NCBI RefSeq assembly: GCF_000010165.1
Contig: NC_012491.1
Location: forward strand, 669,001-733,000
Reading direction: 5' to 3'
From: Brevibacillus brevis NBRC 100599
Lineage (GTDB): Bacteria; Bacillota; Bacilli; Brevibacillales; Brevibacillaceae
DNA: 64,000 nucleotides
The notes under the pieces are model-generated. The model saw only the letters and a program-made list of their open reading frames with translations, ran no database searches and was not told the DNA's origin. The position numbers and the translations under genes were made by a program. How positions within the stretch are numbered: position 1 is the first letter of the stretch; every line of letters starts with the position of its first letter. This document shows, in pieces, positions 32,494 to 38,252 of the stretch.

Positions 32494-34203
32494 CTAGTTC
32501 TTCAGTGGAAGTGCTACGCTCCAATCCATATCTTTTGCTTTGTTCACTTGTTCCTCGATCGTAAGCGTCAGCTCTTTCGGGATAACGTCCATCTCATCTA
32601 CGAGTGTACCTTTCATGATAAAATTTCCTTTTTCATCTTTTGTTGTGGAGCCCATGAAATTAAAATCGTATTCTTTTCCCTTGTCATCAGCACCCTGCCA
32701 GGAGTCTAAAAAGATCACACCCGGTGCCAAAGTTGCCTCTAGCTGTAATGTATTACGCAGCCTTTTGATTTTTTCAGAAGTGATTGGGTTTGTTTTCGTT
32801 ATCTCTTCTGAAGCAAAGTTTGAGAAGGTTAGTGTGCTTCCTTCATGCTTTATCGTTACAGGAGTGGTTTTTAGTGTCTCAATGGACAGCTTTTGCTTAA
32901 AATTCGAAGGAACCTGATCGTAATTATCACCGACTCTAAAGGTTAGATTTTTATCCGTTGGCAAGGAATGAAAGCTGATGAAGTGAATATTTTTGTCATC
33001 GGTTGCACGAACGAAATATTCTCTGCTTACATTTTTGAAAAATGGATTCGGATCTTCCCCAAATTCACTCACTAGGTCCAGAGTGCTCCAAGCTGCGAGT
33101 ACAGCCCCCTTGTCGTCCACTACTTCATAAGTTAAGGATGGGGAACTACCGCTTCCTTCCGTATTCTCGATAACGAATTCAGTTTGGCCAGGTGTCACCA
33201 TCACTTGCTTTAGATTAATCACTTCGCCATTGGGAGCGGTAAAATGCTCGTTAATGGGAACAATTCTCGTTTCCTTTTTGGCTTTGGAAATATCAACAGG
33301 GATGGTTACGCTCCAATTTCCGTCAACTTTGTCCAGCTTCTTGATGCGAAGCTCGATGTTTAGTTTGTCAGGAATCTTGCTGACATCTGTAAAATATCGG
33401 CTAATCGGTCGGCTGACCATCAAGTACTCCTCTTTTTCGCCGATGCTTTCCTTCTTGTTATATTTAAGATGGTACTTATCAATTGTTTCAAGAACGTTTC
33501 CGTCCTCGTCTGTGATTTTTATTTCATAGGTTTCGTTCAGTTTATCTTCATCCCCCACTGGAAAATTCCGGAACAACTTTTCAAGCTGCTTGCCATTCTT
33601 ATCCTTGAAGCCGAAAATAATCCGGACATCCCTCGTATCTGCCATAACTTCTTTTACTTCCAGCGTCATTCCGTTGTCGACGGCTTTCAAATCAAGCTTC
33701 TTGTTATATCCTCTTTCAAGTCCACGCTGGATGAGGGCGTCCTCGGGCGCTTCTGCTGCAAACAAGCTACTCTCTGTCTGCTGCGGATCTGATTTTATGG
33801 TAGAGGCATACAAGTTATTTACATAAGTCGCAAAGGATGGTGAAGTCAGTGTTCCAAAATAGACTACTGCTGCCATTCCTGCTACGGCGATGGTTGCTTT
33901 TTTCACGATATCCAGGCTCCTTTTTTTCCAATCGATTTTCTTCTGTATCTTTTGTCTTTCTGATCGTTTCAGGACGTGAATGGGGTAAGGGGGGAGATTC
34001 GCCATAATGTCATGGATGACAGCATCGGATGGCTCATCTGTCGCTAGTGATTCTTCCAGGTCTTCCAGCTCGTCCAGCTCCTGCTTCAACTTCATCTGGC
34101 AATGACGGCACTCTTCCAAATGGGCTGCTATGACCTCGGCTTCCTCTGGCTCAAGAAGGTCGTATAGATACAAAGCAATTTGTCCTTTATCTAAACATTT
34201 CAT
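32494..34203 (-). CDS. Transmembrane anti-sigma factor with DUF4179-type domain
   Basis: A 569-residue protein. Residues ~20-45 hold the zinc anti-sigma motif: HLEECRHC, with an earlier His/Cys-rich stretch. One membrane helix follows near residue 100 (ATIAVAGMAAVVYFGT), then a ~450-residue extracytoplasmic part rich in beta strands and beginning with FATYVNNLYASTIKSD, as in DUF4179 proteins. It overlaps the ECF sigma gene by four bases. It should hold the sigma factor at the membrane until a surface signal triggers release. The very large outer domain may be the sensor. Confidence 0.88.
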   Translation of the reverse strand: MKCLDKGQIALYLYDLLEPEEAEVIAAHLEECRHCQMKLKQELDELEDLEESLATDEPSDAVIHDIMANLPPYPIHVLKRSERQKIQKKIDWKKRSLDIVKKATIAVAGMAAVVYFGTLTSPSFATYVNNLYASTIKSDPQQTESSLFAAEAPEDALIQRGLERGYNKKLDLKAVDNGMTLEVKEVMADTRDVRIIFGFKDKNGKQLEKLFRNFPVGDEDKLNETYEIKITDEDGNVLETIDKYHLKYNKKESIGEKEEYLMVSRPISRYFTDVSKIPDKLNIELRIKKLDKVDGNWSVTIPVDISKAKKETRIVPINEHFTAPNGEVINLKQVMVTPGQTEFVIENTEGSGSSPSLTYEVVDDKGAVLAAWSTLDLVSEFGEDPNPFFKNVSREYFVRATDDKNIHFISFHSLPTDKNLTFRVGDNYDQVPSNFKQKLSIETLKTTPVTIKHEGSTLTFSNFASEEITKTNPITSEKIKRLRNTLQLEATLAPGVIFLDSWQGADDKGKEYDFNFMGSTTKDEKGNFIMKGTLVDEMDVIPKELTLTIEEQVNKAKDMDWSVALPLKN

Positions 34204-34757
34204 AGATGAAAGTCCCCCCCTTGCCCTGCATGTCCGATAGCTTCCCTTAGCTTGTCTTTTCCACGAGACAGGCGCGTCCGCACAGTACTCGATGGAATCG
34301 ACAGTCGATGGCTGATTTCCTCACAACTCAATGATTCGAAGTAGCGCATTTCGAGGACGATCCGATACTTTTCTTCGACGGACATCATCCTTTGACGCAA
34401 CAAGCGCTGCCCCTCCTTATTCAAAAAGGCAACCTCCGGCGTGTGGCTATCCACTGGCTCTATTTCTTCATTCGAGCTGAGCGTAAGCTTGCGTTTACGT
34501 TTACGCAGCTCGTCCAGACAATGGTTGGCAGCAATCCGGTACAACCATGCAGAAAAATCGTAGTTTGCCTTATATTCTGGTAAATGGTAGTACGTCTTAA
34601 TGAAAATTTCCTGCACGATATCCTGTGCATCCGGTGTATGTCCCAACATCTTGCGAAGAATGGAACTTACTTTTCCGTGGTATCTGGCAATGATCTCGGA
34701 GTAGGCGTCTTTGTTCCCTTGCAAGACCCGCCCGATGATCACTCGATCTTCCTCCAT
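34200..34757 (-). CDS. ECF sigma factor
   Basis: A 185-residue factor starting MEEDRVIIGRVLQGNKDAYS. The ATG at 34757 has GGGGGAG before it; a frame open to 34913 would add 52 unlikely residues. Region 2 (YHGKVSSILRKMLGHTPDAQDIVQEIFIKTYYHL, FSAWLYRIAANHCLDELRKR) and region 4 (EKYRIVLEMRYFESLSCEEI, SIPSSTVRTRLSRGKDKLRE) are complete. It is co-transcribed with the anti-sigma gene. It is read divergently from the 18-codon peptide gene, so it might control that system, but no recognisable ECF promoter is seen in the gap. Confidence 0.93.
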   Translation of the reverse strand: MEEDRVIIGRVLQGNKDAYSEIIARYHGKVSSILRKMLGHTPDAQDIVQEIFIKTYYHLPEYKANYDFSAWLYRIAANHCLDELRKRKRKLTLSSNEEIEPVDSHTPEVAFLNKEGQRLLRQRMMSVEEKYRIVLEMRYFESLSCEEISHRLSIPSSTVRTRLSRGKDKLREAIGHAGQGGDFHL

Positions 34758-35105
34758 TTGTGCTCCCCCTAGGCAAAAAAGGCTCGCTGCGCAGCTTTTC
34801 CTTTTTTGATCAAACAAAAGTGATCTTGGTGAAATTTTCTCGTTACATCCTAGTACTACGAATCCTAAAAGGAAAGCGTCCCAAAATAAGAGGTATTTTC
34901 CAAAGAGGATCAAAAGTTTTTTCCTAAAAGAAGGAGTTCTGAGATTTTTAATAGAAAATGGAAGGAAAATACTATTGCATACGAAATAAATAGTCGAATA
35001 TTACCAAAATATATAAAACTTTGCTAATATTTGTAGATTTCTGTAAATTTATGAAATATAATCAACTTGTCTTTATCTTTGAATCAAAGAGAGGAGGAAC
35101 TATCC
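34758..35105. other. AT-rich divergent regulatory region
   Basis: About 350 bases with no gene separate the ECF sigma gene from the peptide gene. They are distinctly AT-rich between 34920 and 35080, unlike the flanks. A perfect TATAAT lies at 35057-35062 and a weaker TTGCTA with 17-base spacing to TAAATT at 35021-35049, both on the plus strand. A G/C-rich palindrome GCTGCGCAGC lies near 34785-34796. Confidence 0.6.
35057..35062 (+). promoter_or_regulatory. -10 box (TATAAT) before the 18-codon peptide gene
   Basis: A consensus TATAAT lies 43 bases before the ATG. The best upstream -35 candidates (TTGTAG or TTGCTA) have wrong or weak spacing, so an activator or a second promoter may be involved. 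Confidence 0.5.
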
Positions 35106-35162
35106 ATGAAAATCCAAGCGAAAAAAGTTGAAAGCGTTCGCACTACTGCAGTAGCAGCTTAA
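35106..35162 (+). CDS. 18-residue peptide, candidate RiPP precursor
   Basis: The gene reads MKIQAKKVESVRTTAVAA and stops at TAA. AGGAGG stands eight bases before the ATG, an ideal site. The N-terminal part is basic and could be a leader for a PqqD-like recognition domain; the C-terminal part, SVRTTAVAA, lacks Cys and aromatic residues. A stable hairpin with a T-run follows 18 bases after the stop, so a short abundant transcript is expected. Two downstream genes encode a ThiF-type activating enzyme and a metallopeptidase. MccB acts on a peptide of only seven residues, so the size is not prohibitive. It could instead be a leader peptide for transcription control, but the ribosome site and neighbours favour a product. 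Confidence 0.65.
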   Translation: MKIQAKKVESVRTTAVAA

Positions 35163-35179
35163 TTCTCTTAAGGAGAGGG

Positions 35180-35209
35180 GGGAATAGCACAAGAGCTATT
35201 CCCTTTTTT
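35180..35209 (+). terminator. Terminator directly after the 18-codon peptide gene
   Basis: GGGAATAGC (35180-35188) and GCTATTCCC (35195-35203) form a perfect 9-base stem with a 6-base loop, followed by TTTTTT. Partial read-through would keep the enzymes well below the peptide, as in many peptide-modification operons. Confidence 0.93.
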
Positions 35210-35257
35210 CATCTAAATTGAGCCGGGTTAGCGAACCTACTATTGGGAGGTGTTTTT

Positions 35258-36412
35258 ATGGAACGTCGTCCTCTATTTAAACCAGTGCATCCCGTCTATG
35301 AAGTGACAGAGCAGATGCTCCGCTTGGGAGAGGCTCCTGGCTATACATTCGAATTGGAAGACGAGAATGGGTCCATCCGCAAGATGATCAAACTGATGGA
35401 TGGCACTCGTACTATCGGTGAAATACATACATTATTGGTTGTCGATTACCCCGAAATTACGTATGAAGAAATAGTGGAAGCAGTGGAATCATTGAGTGGT
35501 TTGGGTTTCCTAATGGATCAGGCGAAGGAAGAGGCTTCCGTTTTGACTTCGGAACAAAAGGAAAGGTATAAAGCGAATATTCGCTACTTCTCCTTGTTTA
35601 CCGATCTCAATCAAAGTCCAAGCGAGCTACAGGAACAGGTAAGTAGAAAAAAAGTGACGATCTTAGGGATGGGTGCCTTTGGCTCTACGCTACTGGTCAA
35701 TCTGGTAGGAGCGGGTATTCAGCATATCAAGCTCGTGGATTTTGATAGAGTAGAGCTTAGCAATTTGAACAGACAAATGGTCTTTAACGAGCAAGATATT
35801 GGTCGCCTGAAGGTAGAAGCGGCAAGTGATTTCATCGGAAGGCTTCATTCTGAGGTCTTGATTGAAACGGAGACGATGCAAATCAAGTCCAGCGAAGACG
35901 TGGAGCGGGTTATTGCGGGAAGTGACCTCGTGATGCTCGCAGCCGATCAGCCCTTTTTCTTTTTGCAGAGATGGGTGAATCATGCTTGCACCAAACTGCA
36001 AATCCCGTTCATTGCCGGGGGATTCAACCTTATCGAAGGACAGTTCTTCATGGTAGAACCGGGCAAGACAGGCTGTATCGACTGCATGCATTTGCATCGT
36101 TCTGCACAGATCGAGGACTATCCGCAGCTGATCCAAAGGCTGCTCGATACCAACTTTATTCTGCCTACTGCCACCATTGCACCCAACACCATGATGATTA
36201 CAGGAATGATGGCTTCCGATGCAATCAGGTATTTGACAGGAATTGCTCCTGTGCAATCGGCGGGCAAATTTATCATTTTCGATTTCAACACGTTGGAAAA
36301 GAGCGTGTTTTTTGAGTGGGAGCGAAATGAAGCCGAATGCCCGACTTGTGGAAGAGGCAGCGGAACGGAGCCGATTTTTCATATCAAAAGAAATGAAGTG
36401 CTCGCAAAGTAA
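35258..36412 (+). CDS. E1/ThiF-like adenylyltransferase with N-terminal PqqD-like domain
   Basis: A 384-residue protein. The ATG at 35258 has GGGAGG seven bases ahead; a TTG at 35243 lies before that site. Residues ~10-90 resemble a PqqD/RRE peptide-binding domain (VYEVTEQMLRLG, LMDGTRTIGEIHTLLVVDYP, EAVESLSGLGFL). From ~130 the E1 fold follows: ILGMGAFG (137-142), DFDRVELSNLNRQ with Asp161/163 and Arg172, and later a CIDC (273/276) plus CPTC (361/364) pair that can hold zinc. Family members adenylate C-terminal carboxylates of small proteins or peptides, as ThiF and MccB do. A peptide-activating role on the 18-mer is inferred. Confidence 0.85.
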   Translation: MERRPLFKPVHPVYEVTEQMLRLGEAPGYTFELEDENGSIRKMIKLMDGTRTIGEIHTLLVVDYPEITYEEIVEAVESLSGLGFLMDQAKEEASVLTSEQKERYKANIRYFSLFTDLNQSPSELQEQVSRKKVTILGMGAFGSTLLVNLVGAGIQHIKLVDFDRVELSNLNRQMVFNEQDIGRLKVEAASDFIGRLHSEVLIETETMQIKSSEDVERVIAGSDLVMLAADQPFFFLQRWVNHACTKLQIPFIAGGFNLIEGQFFMVEPGKTGCIDCMHLHRSAQIEDYPQLIQRLLDTNFILPTATIAPNTMMITGMMASDAIRYLTGIAPVQSAGKFIIFDFNTLEKSVFFEWERNEAECPTCGRGSGTEPIFHIKRNEVLAK

Positions 36413-36448
36413 GGAATCGTTCCTGTAAGAGAGGAAGGTGTTTGACAA

Positions 36449-37687
36449 GTGAATATCTCGGGAGATAGCATTCTCAAGATGCACCCGCTTGCGCGTCGGG
36501 CGGAAAACGAGGAAGAGATCCTCATTGGACGAACGGATATCAGCAATTTCATTGTGCTTCCGGCCATTGGTGTCGAGATCATCGATATGCTGGATGAAGG
36601 GAAGAGCATTCATGAAGTCGCGACGATCATGGAAGAACGGTTGGGCGAACCGGTAGATGTGCTTGACTTTGCGCAGGATTTAATTGCTTCCTATCAATTT
36701 GTCTACATGGTAGATGGAGAAGTTGTCAACGAGCCAGTGCCGGTTGTAGATCATTTCTCTTGGATCAAGCAGGGGACGGGGCAGTTTTTCTTTAATCGCG
36801 TTGCCTTTGGATTATACGGTATCTTGTTTTTCACGGGTCTTTTCATTTGTTTGTTTACGGGCAAGTATATCCCGGTCTATTCCGATATTTTTGTTTCTTC
36901 TTCCGTGACGGTTTCGGTAGTGGTTTCATTTGTGGCCACTTGGGTTTTTCTGTTTTTCCATGAGATGGCCCACTTGATGGCGGCCCGCTCATTGGGGATC
37001 GGCAGTCGTATCGGTCTGGGGCATCGACTTGTTTTTGCCGTAGCAGAGACGAATATGTCCAATATTGTTCTTGTTGAGCCACAGCGCAGATACAGGGCGT
37101 TTTTGGCGGGAATGTCCTGGGATGCGATGTTTATGGGAATCGGTGTGATTTTGTTGTTTGCCAATGATCAAGGCTGGCTGACGCTTTTGCCCTTCATGGA
37201 AGCATTCATTCGCATGCTGAATGTCATTCTTCTCATGGCTTTGGCCTTTCAGTTCATGGTTTTCATGCAGACCGACTTATACTACGTGTTAGCAACCAAG
37301 TTCCAATGCTCCAATCTGATGGTGAATACACGTATGTTTTTGAAAGGGAAATTCCGTTCCTTGACGCAGGAGGAGCAGGAGGAATGGGAGTACGTAGCTG
37401 ACCACGAGAAGAGAGTCATCCGCTGGTATAGCTGGGTCTATTTGATTGGATCAGTGTGGGGAATTTGGTTCTTTGTCCAGTATCAGCTGCGCATGGCGGT
37501 TGATTTCATCTGGATCATCGCTGACGACATGAAAAACGCTCCGCTTCACTCGTGGGAGTTTTGGGACGGCATCCTATTGATCCTGTTGGTGCTAGTTCCG
37601 TTTCTCATTTTGGGCTGGTCGTGGATGAGAGCCTATCGACAACGGAGAAGCGAAAGAGAGCGGACGAAATCCTTGCAGGGCACATAA
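36449..37687 (+). CDS. Membrane metallopeptidase (M50-like) with PqqD-like domain
   Basis: A 412-residue protein from a GTG with AGGAAGG upstream. Residues ~12-88 look like a second PqqD-like module (MHPLARRAENEEEILIGRTD, VGVEIIDMLDEG-type, EVATIMEERLG). Membrane helices begin near 118. The zinc motif HEMAH is at 171-175 in FLFFHEMAHLMAARSLG, and the third ligand is probably Asp276 in MQTDLYYVLA, as in COG1994 peptide metallopeptidases. Four or more further helices follow. It may cleave a leader or act as an exporter-linked processing enzyme. It lies 36 bases after the ThiF gene. Confidence 0.85.
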   Translation: MNISGDSILKMHPLARRAENEEEILIGRTDISNFIVLPAIGVEIIDMLDEGKSIHEVATIMEERLGEPVDVLDFAQDLIASYQFVYMVDGEVVNEPVPVVDHFSWIKQGTGQFFFNRVAFGLYGILFFTGLFICLFTGKYIPVYSDIFVSSSVTVSVVVSFVATWVFLFFHEMAHLMAARSLGIGSRIGLGHRLVFAVAETNMSNIVLVEPQRRYRAFLAGMSWDAMFMGIGVILLFANDQGWLTLLPFMEAFIRMLNVILLMALAFQFMVFMQTDLYYVLATKFQCSNLMVNTRMFLKGKFRSLTQEEQEEWEYVADHEKRVIRWYSWVYLIGSVWGIWFFVQYQLRMAVDFIWIIADDMKNAPLHSWEFWDGILLILLVLVPFLILGWSWMRAYRQRRSERERTKSLQGT

Positions 37688-37766
37688 CTAATTTGTGTCT
37701 TCACCTTGCCAAGCTACCCTGTTACGCTAAGGGGAAGAGAGATACCCAGGCAAAGGAAGTGCTCAC

Positions 37767-38252
37767 ATGAACCCGATGATCCAAAAAATCATTCATCTGC
37801 GAAAAGAAGGGCATCTGGACGAAGCGATCCAGCTTGCCCTTCAGCTCGTCAGTCAATCTCCGACTGATCCTGTCGCCCATTATCAGTGTGCGTGGTGCCA
37901 CGACGCAGCCGGATTGGAGAGGGAAGCTGTTCCCTTTTACGAAAAAGCGATTGAGCTCGGACTGTCTGTCGAAGACGACCTGCAAGGGGCATTACTCGGT
38001 TTGGGCAGTACGTATCGCACGCTGGGACAATACGAGCAGGCAGCAGCTACGCTCGAGATGGGGATGCAACAGTTCCCCAGCGACCGTTCCTTTCCGATTT
38101 TTCTTTCCATGGCGTATTACAATCTCGGGAAGCATCACGAAGCCATGAATCTCCTCCTGAAAAACCTCGCAGAAACCTCAAGCGATCCTACGATTTTGGC
38201 CTATCGAAAAGCGATTCTGTTCTATGCAGATGATCTGAATAAGACATGGTAG
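37767..38252 (+). CDS. Tetratricopeptide-repeat protein
   Basis: A 161-residue protein made of about four TPR-like helix pairs, e.g. GHLDEAIQLALQLVSQSPTD, GLEREAVPFYEKAIELGL, GQYEQAAATLEMGMQQFPSD and GKHHEAMNLLLKNLAETSSD. It has no signal peptide. It lies 79 bases behind the metallopeptidase, in the same direction. It may belong to the peptide operon as a scaffold, or be an ordinary separate gene; no terminator lies between. Confidence 0.8.
   Translation: MNPMIQKIIHLRKEGHLDEAIQLALQLVSQSPTDPVAHYQCAWCHDAAGLEREAVPFYEKAIELGLSVEDDLQGALLGLGSTYRTLGQYEQAAATLEMGMQQFPSDRSFPIFLSMAYYNLGKHHEAMNLLLKNLAETSSDPTILAYRKAILFYADDLNKTW

Follow-up and report, generated by a model that had tools for sequence, protein, structure and literature searches.

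A candidate minimal RiPP system of a short peptide, a ThiF-like enzyme and an M50 peptidase in Brevibacillus brevis

What does an 18-codon gene do when it lies directly before an adenylating enzyme and a membrane peptidase? The question is raised by a three-gene unit of Brevibacillus brevis NBRC 100599, found in a stretch of 64,000 nucleotides (NC_012491.1, positions 669,001 to 733,000; hereafter the window), in which a short peptide gene is followed by the genes of a ThiF-like adenylyltransferase and an M50-type membrane metallopeptidase. A first-pass annotation had likened the unit to the systems of ribosomally synthesized and post-translationally modified peptides (RiPPs), and comparison across genomes bears this out: 33 distinct precursors combine a common 14-residue leader with variable cores of 4-17 residues beside a tailoring enzyme, which is the arrangement by which a RiPP is recognised. 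The label of a minimal RiPP system for peptide, ThiF and M50 is well supported by the sequences. The unit probably encodes a compact pathway of leader-guided C-terminal adenylation, capture of the activated end and then cleavage of the leader by the M50 enzyme, and it indicates a branch of peptide natural products that has received little study.

Peptide gene and leader family

The unit and its flanking signals are arranged in the window as follows.

35057..35062, + strand: TATAAT, a possible -10 element, with no good -35 hexamer at normal spacing
35092..35097, + strand: AGGAGG, ribosome binding site of the peptide gene by sequence, 8 nt 5' of the ATG
35106..35162, + strand: precursor peptide gene of 18 codons, MKIQAKKVESVRTTAVAA; residues 1-14 conserved leader, 15-18 variable core, predicted boundary
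35173..35210, + strand: stem-loop with U-run between the peptide and ThiF genes, terminator- or attenuator-like by folding
35245..35250, + strand: GGGAGG, ribosome binding site of the ThiF gene by sequence
35258..36412, + strand: ThiF-like adenylyltransferase of 384 aa (P0001); PqqD-like region at about residues 13-86, adenylation domain at 120-362
36449..37687, + strand: M50-type membrane metallopeptidase of 412 aa (P0002) with a GTG start; PqqD-like region at about residues 28-85, and hydrophobic segments
36959..36973, + strand: HEMAH (HExxH), zinc/catalytic motif of the peptidase by alignment, residues 171-175
37271-37285, + strand: TDLYY, with D276 as the candidate third ligand by alignment

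The open reading frames (ORFs) and coordinates agree with the earlier description of an 18-residue peptide gene with an ideal ribosome site before the two enzyme genes, the ATG standing at 35106 and the last base of the stop codon at 35162. Across 11 Brevibacillus loci (L008-L018), the peptide ATG lies 141-166 bp 5' of the ThiF ATG, and 36 of the 42 leader bases are invariant, the six variable columns being all synonymous; around the gene, invariant bases number 11 of 20 before the ATG and 30 of 63 after the stop. The synonymous changes come from L017 and L018, and the leader is identical in the other nine loci. The same peptide is encoded in 10 of the 11, and L017 has the same leader with the end LLNAT. 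The peptide gene can hence be taken as real, since its leader is conserved across the 11 loci with only synonymous change, and the leader appears to be under purifying selection. Across 99 genomes, a DNA pattern of the first eight residues gave 22 matches, spread over 15 genomes, and its reversed control gave none; 20 of the 22 lie near a ThiF gene. One of the two matches away from ThiF is an orphan precursor in genome G036, 178 kb from its ThiF. The other, in G057 (L092), was set aside as chance; it lies inside a same-strand ORF, in a genome with neither an M50 of the family nor a ThiF at an expectation value (E) of 1e-100.

The wider family was drawn from 46 regions around ThiF relatives, taken from searches of 99, 398, 7, 394 and 80 genomes; seven Brevibacillus genomes near the source and several weaker matches (e.g., G060, G178, G201, G274 and G303) were left out. 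Short ORFs were scanned with a leader profile in 45 of these regions (all but L050, where ThiF is partial and M50 absent) and in L091 and L092, and a leader-type precursor was called at E up to 0.05. The list of 33 excludes the L092 match and short ORFs before ThiF that start differently (L096, L104, L105, L133, L136, L138 and others); in its alignment the two-residue starts of two types were moved by one, and the split between leader and core is drawn from conservation. Leader positions 1, 2, 3, 8, 9 and 14 carry 3.7-4.0 bits and the last four core positions 0.8-1.65 bits. Thr14 is kept in 29 of the 33 precursors. No C-terminal residue is universal (Val 11, Ala 5, Ile 4, Ser 4, Asn 4, Cys 3, others 2), and the Ala-Ala end that the first-pass annotation had proposed as the more plausible site of activation is not a feature of the system.

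That annotation had staked its reading on the peptide being conserved together with the enzymes, and this is what the sequences give: the leader is kept, and a leader-type precursor was found in 26 of the 32 ThiF regions with an M50 gene, as against one of the 13 scanned regions without (L046). Many training peptides of the leader profile came from the same loci as those scanned, so the run was repeated with each test clade left out. Precursors were then found again in 15 of the 28 bearing regions (14 with ThiF and the G036 orphan region), and of the 25,276 short ORFs in 47 regions nothing else reached E 0.05. The precursor of L134, which is outside the training set, was found blind between ThiF and M50. 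At L043 of genome G033, nine precursor genes with seven different cores accompany one M50 gene and two tandem ThiF genes, eight lying before the first ThiF and one between the two.

AAATATAAT is found in 11 of 11 aligned Brevibacillus upstream regions, and a promoter scan listed no + strand site at 35057..35062. The stem-loop at 35173-35210 folds at -23.3 kcal/mol (z -4.1, 200 shuffles) with a six-U run on its 3' side, in line with the earlier claim that the gene has its own terminator, and it is not listed by a simple terminator scan; Rfam gave no match within 34700-37900. Folded over 80 nt and with no shuffle control, 25 of 26 post-precursor stretches reach -16.6 kcal/mol or lower, and L046 gives -8.1. 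The stem-loop would tilt output to the peptide over the enzyme. A short ORF, a stem-loop and a U-run before an enzyme gene could also be read as a regulatory leader peptide, the translation of which controls an attenuator before the enzyme genes. This is very unlikely: the leader amino acids survive synonymous changes while the peptide end varies, the peptide gene has no run of one codon, precursors reach nine copies per locus, and one of them lies between ThiF and M50 and another 178 kb from its ThiF.

Two further loci deserve mention. The precursor core of L146 (G817), beside ThiF and M50, consists mostly of Cys and Gly (VAAGCCCCCGCC). At L044 (G032), ThiF has an in-frame stop and the M50 match is without its N-terminal part, with the precursor retained; this locus looks to be in decay.

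The two enzymes and their N-terminal domains

The ThiF protein matches PF00899 at E 3e-53, and all 29 sequences of the ThiF profile match this family. The best solved structure for this profile is PaaA (5ff5, E 1e-51), aligned over positions 2-354 including the N-terminal domain, and the second is MccB (3h5a, E 9e-50) over positions 97-371. R172, K185, D230, C273, C276, C361 and C364 are invariant in the 29 sequences and all align with MccB, the four cysteines forming two CxxC pairs that correspond to the MccB pairs. The Arg, Lys and Asp would have the ATP/Mg roles given for EnfB and MccB (PMC12250964), and by sequence these residues are intact in all 29.

For the peptidase, H171, E172, H175 and D276 are invariant in all 26 aligned M50 sequences. 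HExxH is presumably the zinc/catalytic motif, as in the family at large, and together with a downstream Asp in hydrophobic segments it gives the sequence pattern of an M50 site-2 peptidase. The source protein matches PF02163 weakly (E 0.022).

Both enzymes had been described as starting with a PqqD-like module, that is, a RiPP recognition element (RRE)-like domain, and profile comparison agrees. Against 17 PqqD proteins of related genomes, the ThiF N-terminus scored a probability of 89.8% and the M50 N-terminus 89.0%, with 0.4% for the ThiF catalytic domain as the control; the two N-termini matched each other at 63.5%. Single-sequence searches gave less. PqqD stands below threshold on the source M50 protein (E 0.032) and is not listed for its ThiF, and a PF05402 search of the source genome had no match. 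PqqD is listed at E 0.01 for six of the 29 ThiF and five of the 26 M50 sequences, the two source proteins not among them, and PaaA-like_N for five of the 29 ThiF sequences. Over 60 genomes, two M50s and one ThiF of these families exceeded the Pfam cut-off of PF05402, two of the three only just. There is good sequence support for an RRE-like domain in both enzymes, with a leader-binding PqqD-like winged helix as the predicted fold.

The two enzymes also occur together. An M50 gene lies on the same strand within 3 kb of ThiF in 32 of the 46 regions, and in L132 and L135 it stands before ThiF instead of after it. Among 99 related genomes, 16 have a member of the M50 family (E up to 1e-30), and exactly these 16 have ThiF at E < 1e-100; G083, with a more distant ThiF (E 2e-54), has no M50. 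Peptide, ThiF and M50 remain together while the flanking genes tested change. In a tree of 28 ThiF sequences, several branches of which are weak, M50-linked and other ThiFs are interleaved and do not form one clade, a pattern that suggests repeated gain or loss of M50 coupling.

Proposed pathway and known systems

RRE-ThiF enzymes are described as binding a leader, adenylating a carboxylate and allowing its capture by a nucleophile (PMC12250964; PMC12150305). The first-pass annotation had favoured C-terminal activation, which by analogy is the chemistry of this family. We infer the following steps, from activation and capture to cleavage, release and biological role. Residues 1-14 (MKIQAKKVESVRTT) would form the leader, to which the ThiF enzyme would bind through its RRE-like domain, and residues 15-18 (AVAA) the core. 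With ATP, the ThiF domain would adenylate the C-terminal carboxylate of the precursor, as the intact family residues suggest, and the acyl-adenylate would then be captured by a nucleophile. The core AVAA has no reactive side chain, so capture would come from the rest of the peptide (the candidates for cyclisation near AVAA being the hydroxyl of Thr13 or Thr14, backbone amides and leader lysines) or from an outside molecule. Water-losing cyclisation onto the peptide itself is judged the likeliest outcome, carrying about half of the weight; transfer to an outside amine is clearly less likely, and attachment of a nucleotide is doubtful. Thr14 may be the nucleophile or part of the peptidase site. 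A Thr14 lactone as the universal product is excluded, because four of the 33 precursors are without Thr14.

Nucleotide attachment is the step by which the system would resemble microcin C, in which ThiF links a nucleotide to the peptide C-terminus to give a Trojan-horse inhibitor. Of the solved structures, PaaA and MccB match ThiF best, and MccB has the Asp and the two CxxC pairs in common with ThiF; the Arg and Lys also align, and the precursors are short here as in microcin C and the Bacillus McC-like systems; four of the 33 leader-type precursors end in Asn, and the close M50-less ThiF relatives at L133, L136 and L138 pair with peptides ending in WGxRxxN. However, the N-P bond requires Asn at the C-terminus, and in one survey every MccA peptide had it, Asn being also among the search criteria (PMC6495379). 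The source peptide ends in Ala, 29 of the 33 precursors have no C-terminal Asn, and the three-gene unit is without nucleotide-tailoring, export or immunity genes. A microcin C-like system is thus improbable, and membership of microcin C itself is ruled out by the missing Asn.

In the compact RiPP pathway, the M50 peptidase would bind the same leader through its own RRE-like domain and cut close to where Thr14 meets the core, within or at the membrane, so that a very short modified peptide is freed. The protease may also deliver the product outward, as no transporter belongs to the conserved unit. The role of the product is undecided between a signal and an antimicrobial. Another use of an M50 enzyme is found in pearlins, where TglG and TmoG act on a peptide scaffold (PMC10885120): enzymes would build on the peptide end, and the M50, as a carboxypeptidase, would free the end residue for the scaffold to be used again. 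This is most unlikely here, as the three-gene unit has no amino-acid-adding PEARL-type enzyme and the cores are very diverse in length and sequence, unlike a constant scaffold.

Several observations weigh against the leader-guided pathway. The clade-left-out profile missed 13 of the 28 precursor regions (L094, L098, L099, L132, L135, L139, L142, L144, L145 and L147-L150), and six of the 32 ThiF-M50 regions have no recognisable precursor (L103, L042, L107, L108, L097 and L102). In L103, ThiF lies about 100 bases from a contig end. L042, L107 and L108 form a B. laterosporus-like group with ThiF and M50 and no recognised precursor adjoining; G036, one of these three genomes, holds the orphan MKIQAKKVEQVSPTLMTSV (L091 7993, - strand), beyond which a relaxed leader pattern found nothing in 14 genomes. 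L097 and the partly masked L102 have no explanation. The M50 assignment is drawn from the motif and from weak Pfam matches (at E 0.01, 11 of the 26 sequences), and no PDB chain was matched by the M50 homologues. Further, M50 coupling is spread beyond one ThiF clade, no transporter, exporter or immunity gene was found in the conserved unit, and a Thr14 lactone fails as a general rule for the four precursors in which Thr14 is absent.

The earlier statement that only MccB is well known for acting on such small peptides is outdated. PaaA, GrcB, EnfB and IndF are RRE-ThiF enzymes as well, with precursors of 30 residues for PaaA, 39 for GrcB and 21 for EnfB (PMC12250964; PMC12150305). The products include a phosphoramidate (MccB), a bicycle (PaaA), a thiolactone (GrcB) and an indolylamide (IndF) (PMC12250964; PMC12150305); that of EnfB is reported as an imide or amide, the structure being called unsettled by PMC12150305. 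By two features, the fusion of RRE with ThiF/E1 and the intact ATP/Mg residues, both read from sequence, the ThiF-M50 system belongs to the ThiF-like (TLAT) RiPP systems, and it lacks the tested hallmark of each named subtype.

The ind and enterofaecin systems have a similarly small precursor and RRE-ThiF fusion, and the ind cluster has a peptidase (PMC12150305; PMC12250964). In their case the end is fixed (NWYFI, WWIVI), the ind peptidase is of the M16 type and transporters are present, whereas here the M50 has its own RRE-like domain, the unit has no transporter, and no C-terminus is fixed; an ending of the WWIVI or NWYFI type occurs in none of the 33 precursors. At L105, an ind-like precursor ending in NWYFI precedes a ThiF that matches our profile at E 3e-62. 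For enterofaecin a (V/I)R motif has been named (PMC12250964), which the leader motif KV..VR resembles; this is a lead only.

Pantocin A-type precursors have a Glu-Glu-Asn core, which is absent in the 33 precursors. PaaA is the best PDB match, with both domains aligned, but its alignment lacks the Asp and the first CxxC, and it is accompanied by an oxygenase and an exporter instead of an M50. In its precursor PaaP, modification takes place at two internal Glu (PMC12250964). The GRC hallmarks, a Glu...Cys thiolactone pair and radical SAM partners, were not found: the source peptide has no Cys, and no radical SAM protein is encoded in the unit. Epipeptides are made by radical SAM chemistry and pearlins by PEARL chemistry, the partner here being instead a ThiF, with an RRE-like domain on the peptidase. 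Common to all is a membrane peptidase of M50 type, which in those systems matures a small RiPP: EpeP in epipeptides and TglG and TmoG in pearlins (PMC10885120).

The combination had been called undescribed. This holds for the M50-coupled branch, as no ThiF-M50 RiPP pair is described in the open-access literature searched (supplements being outside the search), and not for ThiF-like RiPP systems as such, which are known. The network of PMC12150305 starts from 27,400 RRE-ThiF fusions, with further candidate ThiF clusters in its Figure S1, and the M50-linked ThiF proteins may lie within it unnamed. The precursors fall below the length that standard gene callers accept, and ThiF-M50 systems are hence easily missed. 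Precursors of the named subtypes have a fixed motif, placed within the core or at its end, and here the end is free. With its constant leader and free end, the family lends itself to testing how a leader guides C-terminal activation, and it might serve as a tool for the chemistry of peptide C-termini. Modification and release would be coupled by a peptidase that has a leader-binding domain itself. More tentatively, and with the balance somewhat against it, the leader-guided ThiF may accept almost any C-terminus, so that one enzyme set serves a library of cores and an RRE-bearing protease cuts and releases the products without a transporter; if true, this would be a new way of making and delivering very small C-terminally modified peptides.

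Neighbouring genes and related loci

Divergent from the peptide gene, an extracytoplasmic function sigma factor gene and a zf-HC2/DUF4179 anti-sigma-like gene lie at 32494-34913 on the - strand of the window. This pair was considered as part of the unit and rejected, being present at L038 and L039 and not found at L040, L049, L041 and L048. The downstream TPR and response-regulator genes were rejected likewise: around L041 and L048 (76-84% identity), the surrounding 13-17 kb is without sigma, anti-sigma, TPR and response-regulator genes.

The source genome has a second M50 of the family outside the window (G000:C1:770463-774037, L174:8464-12038). It follows a small peptide gene, MKKITVQKTEPVKLTSVANTMYDCTCEQA, and precedes a 731-aa TPR protein, with no ThiF between or beside them. 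This paralogue occurs in eight of 99 genomes, and the set of peptide, M50 and a protein of 730-750 aa was seen in both neighbourhoods inspected (its own and G033). It may belong to a sister RiPP system in which a different protein is the partner.

Other relatives have ThiF without M50. The systems at L133, L136 and L138, the peptides of which carry a C-terminal Asn, look microcin C-like by sequence. L095 and L096 have a related ThiF, no M50 and an adjoining ORF that by eye resembles a major facilitator superfamily transporter; the candidate peptide of L096 is MIKVEKGASLAGVVVALPG.

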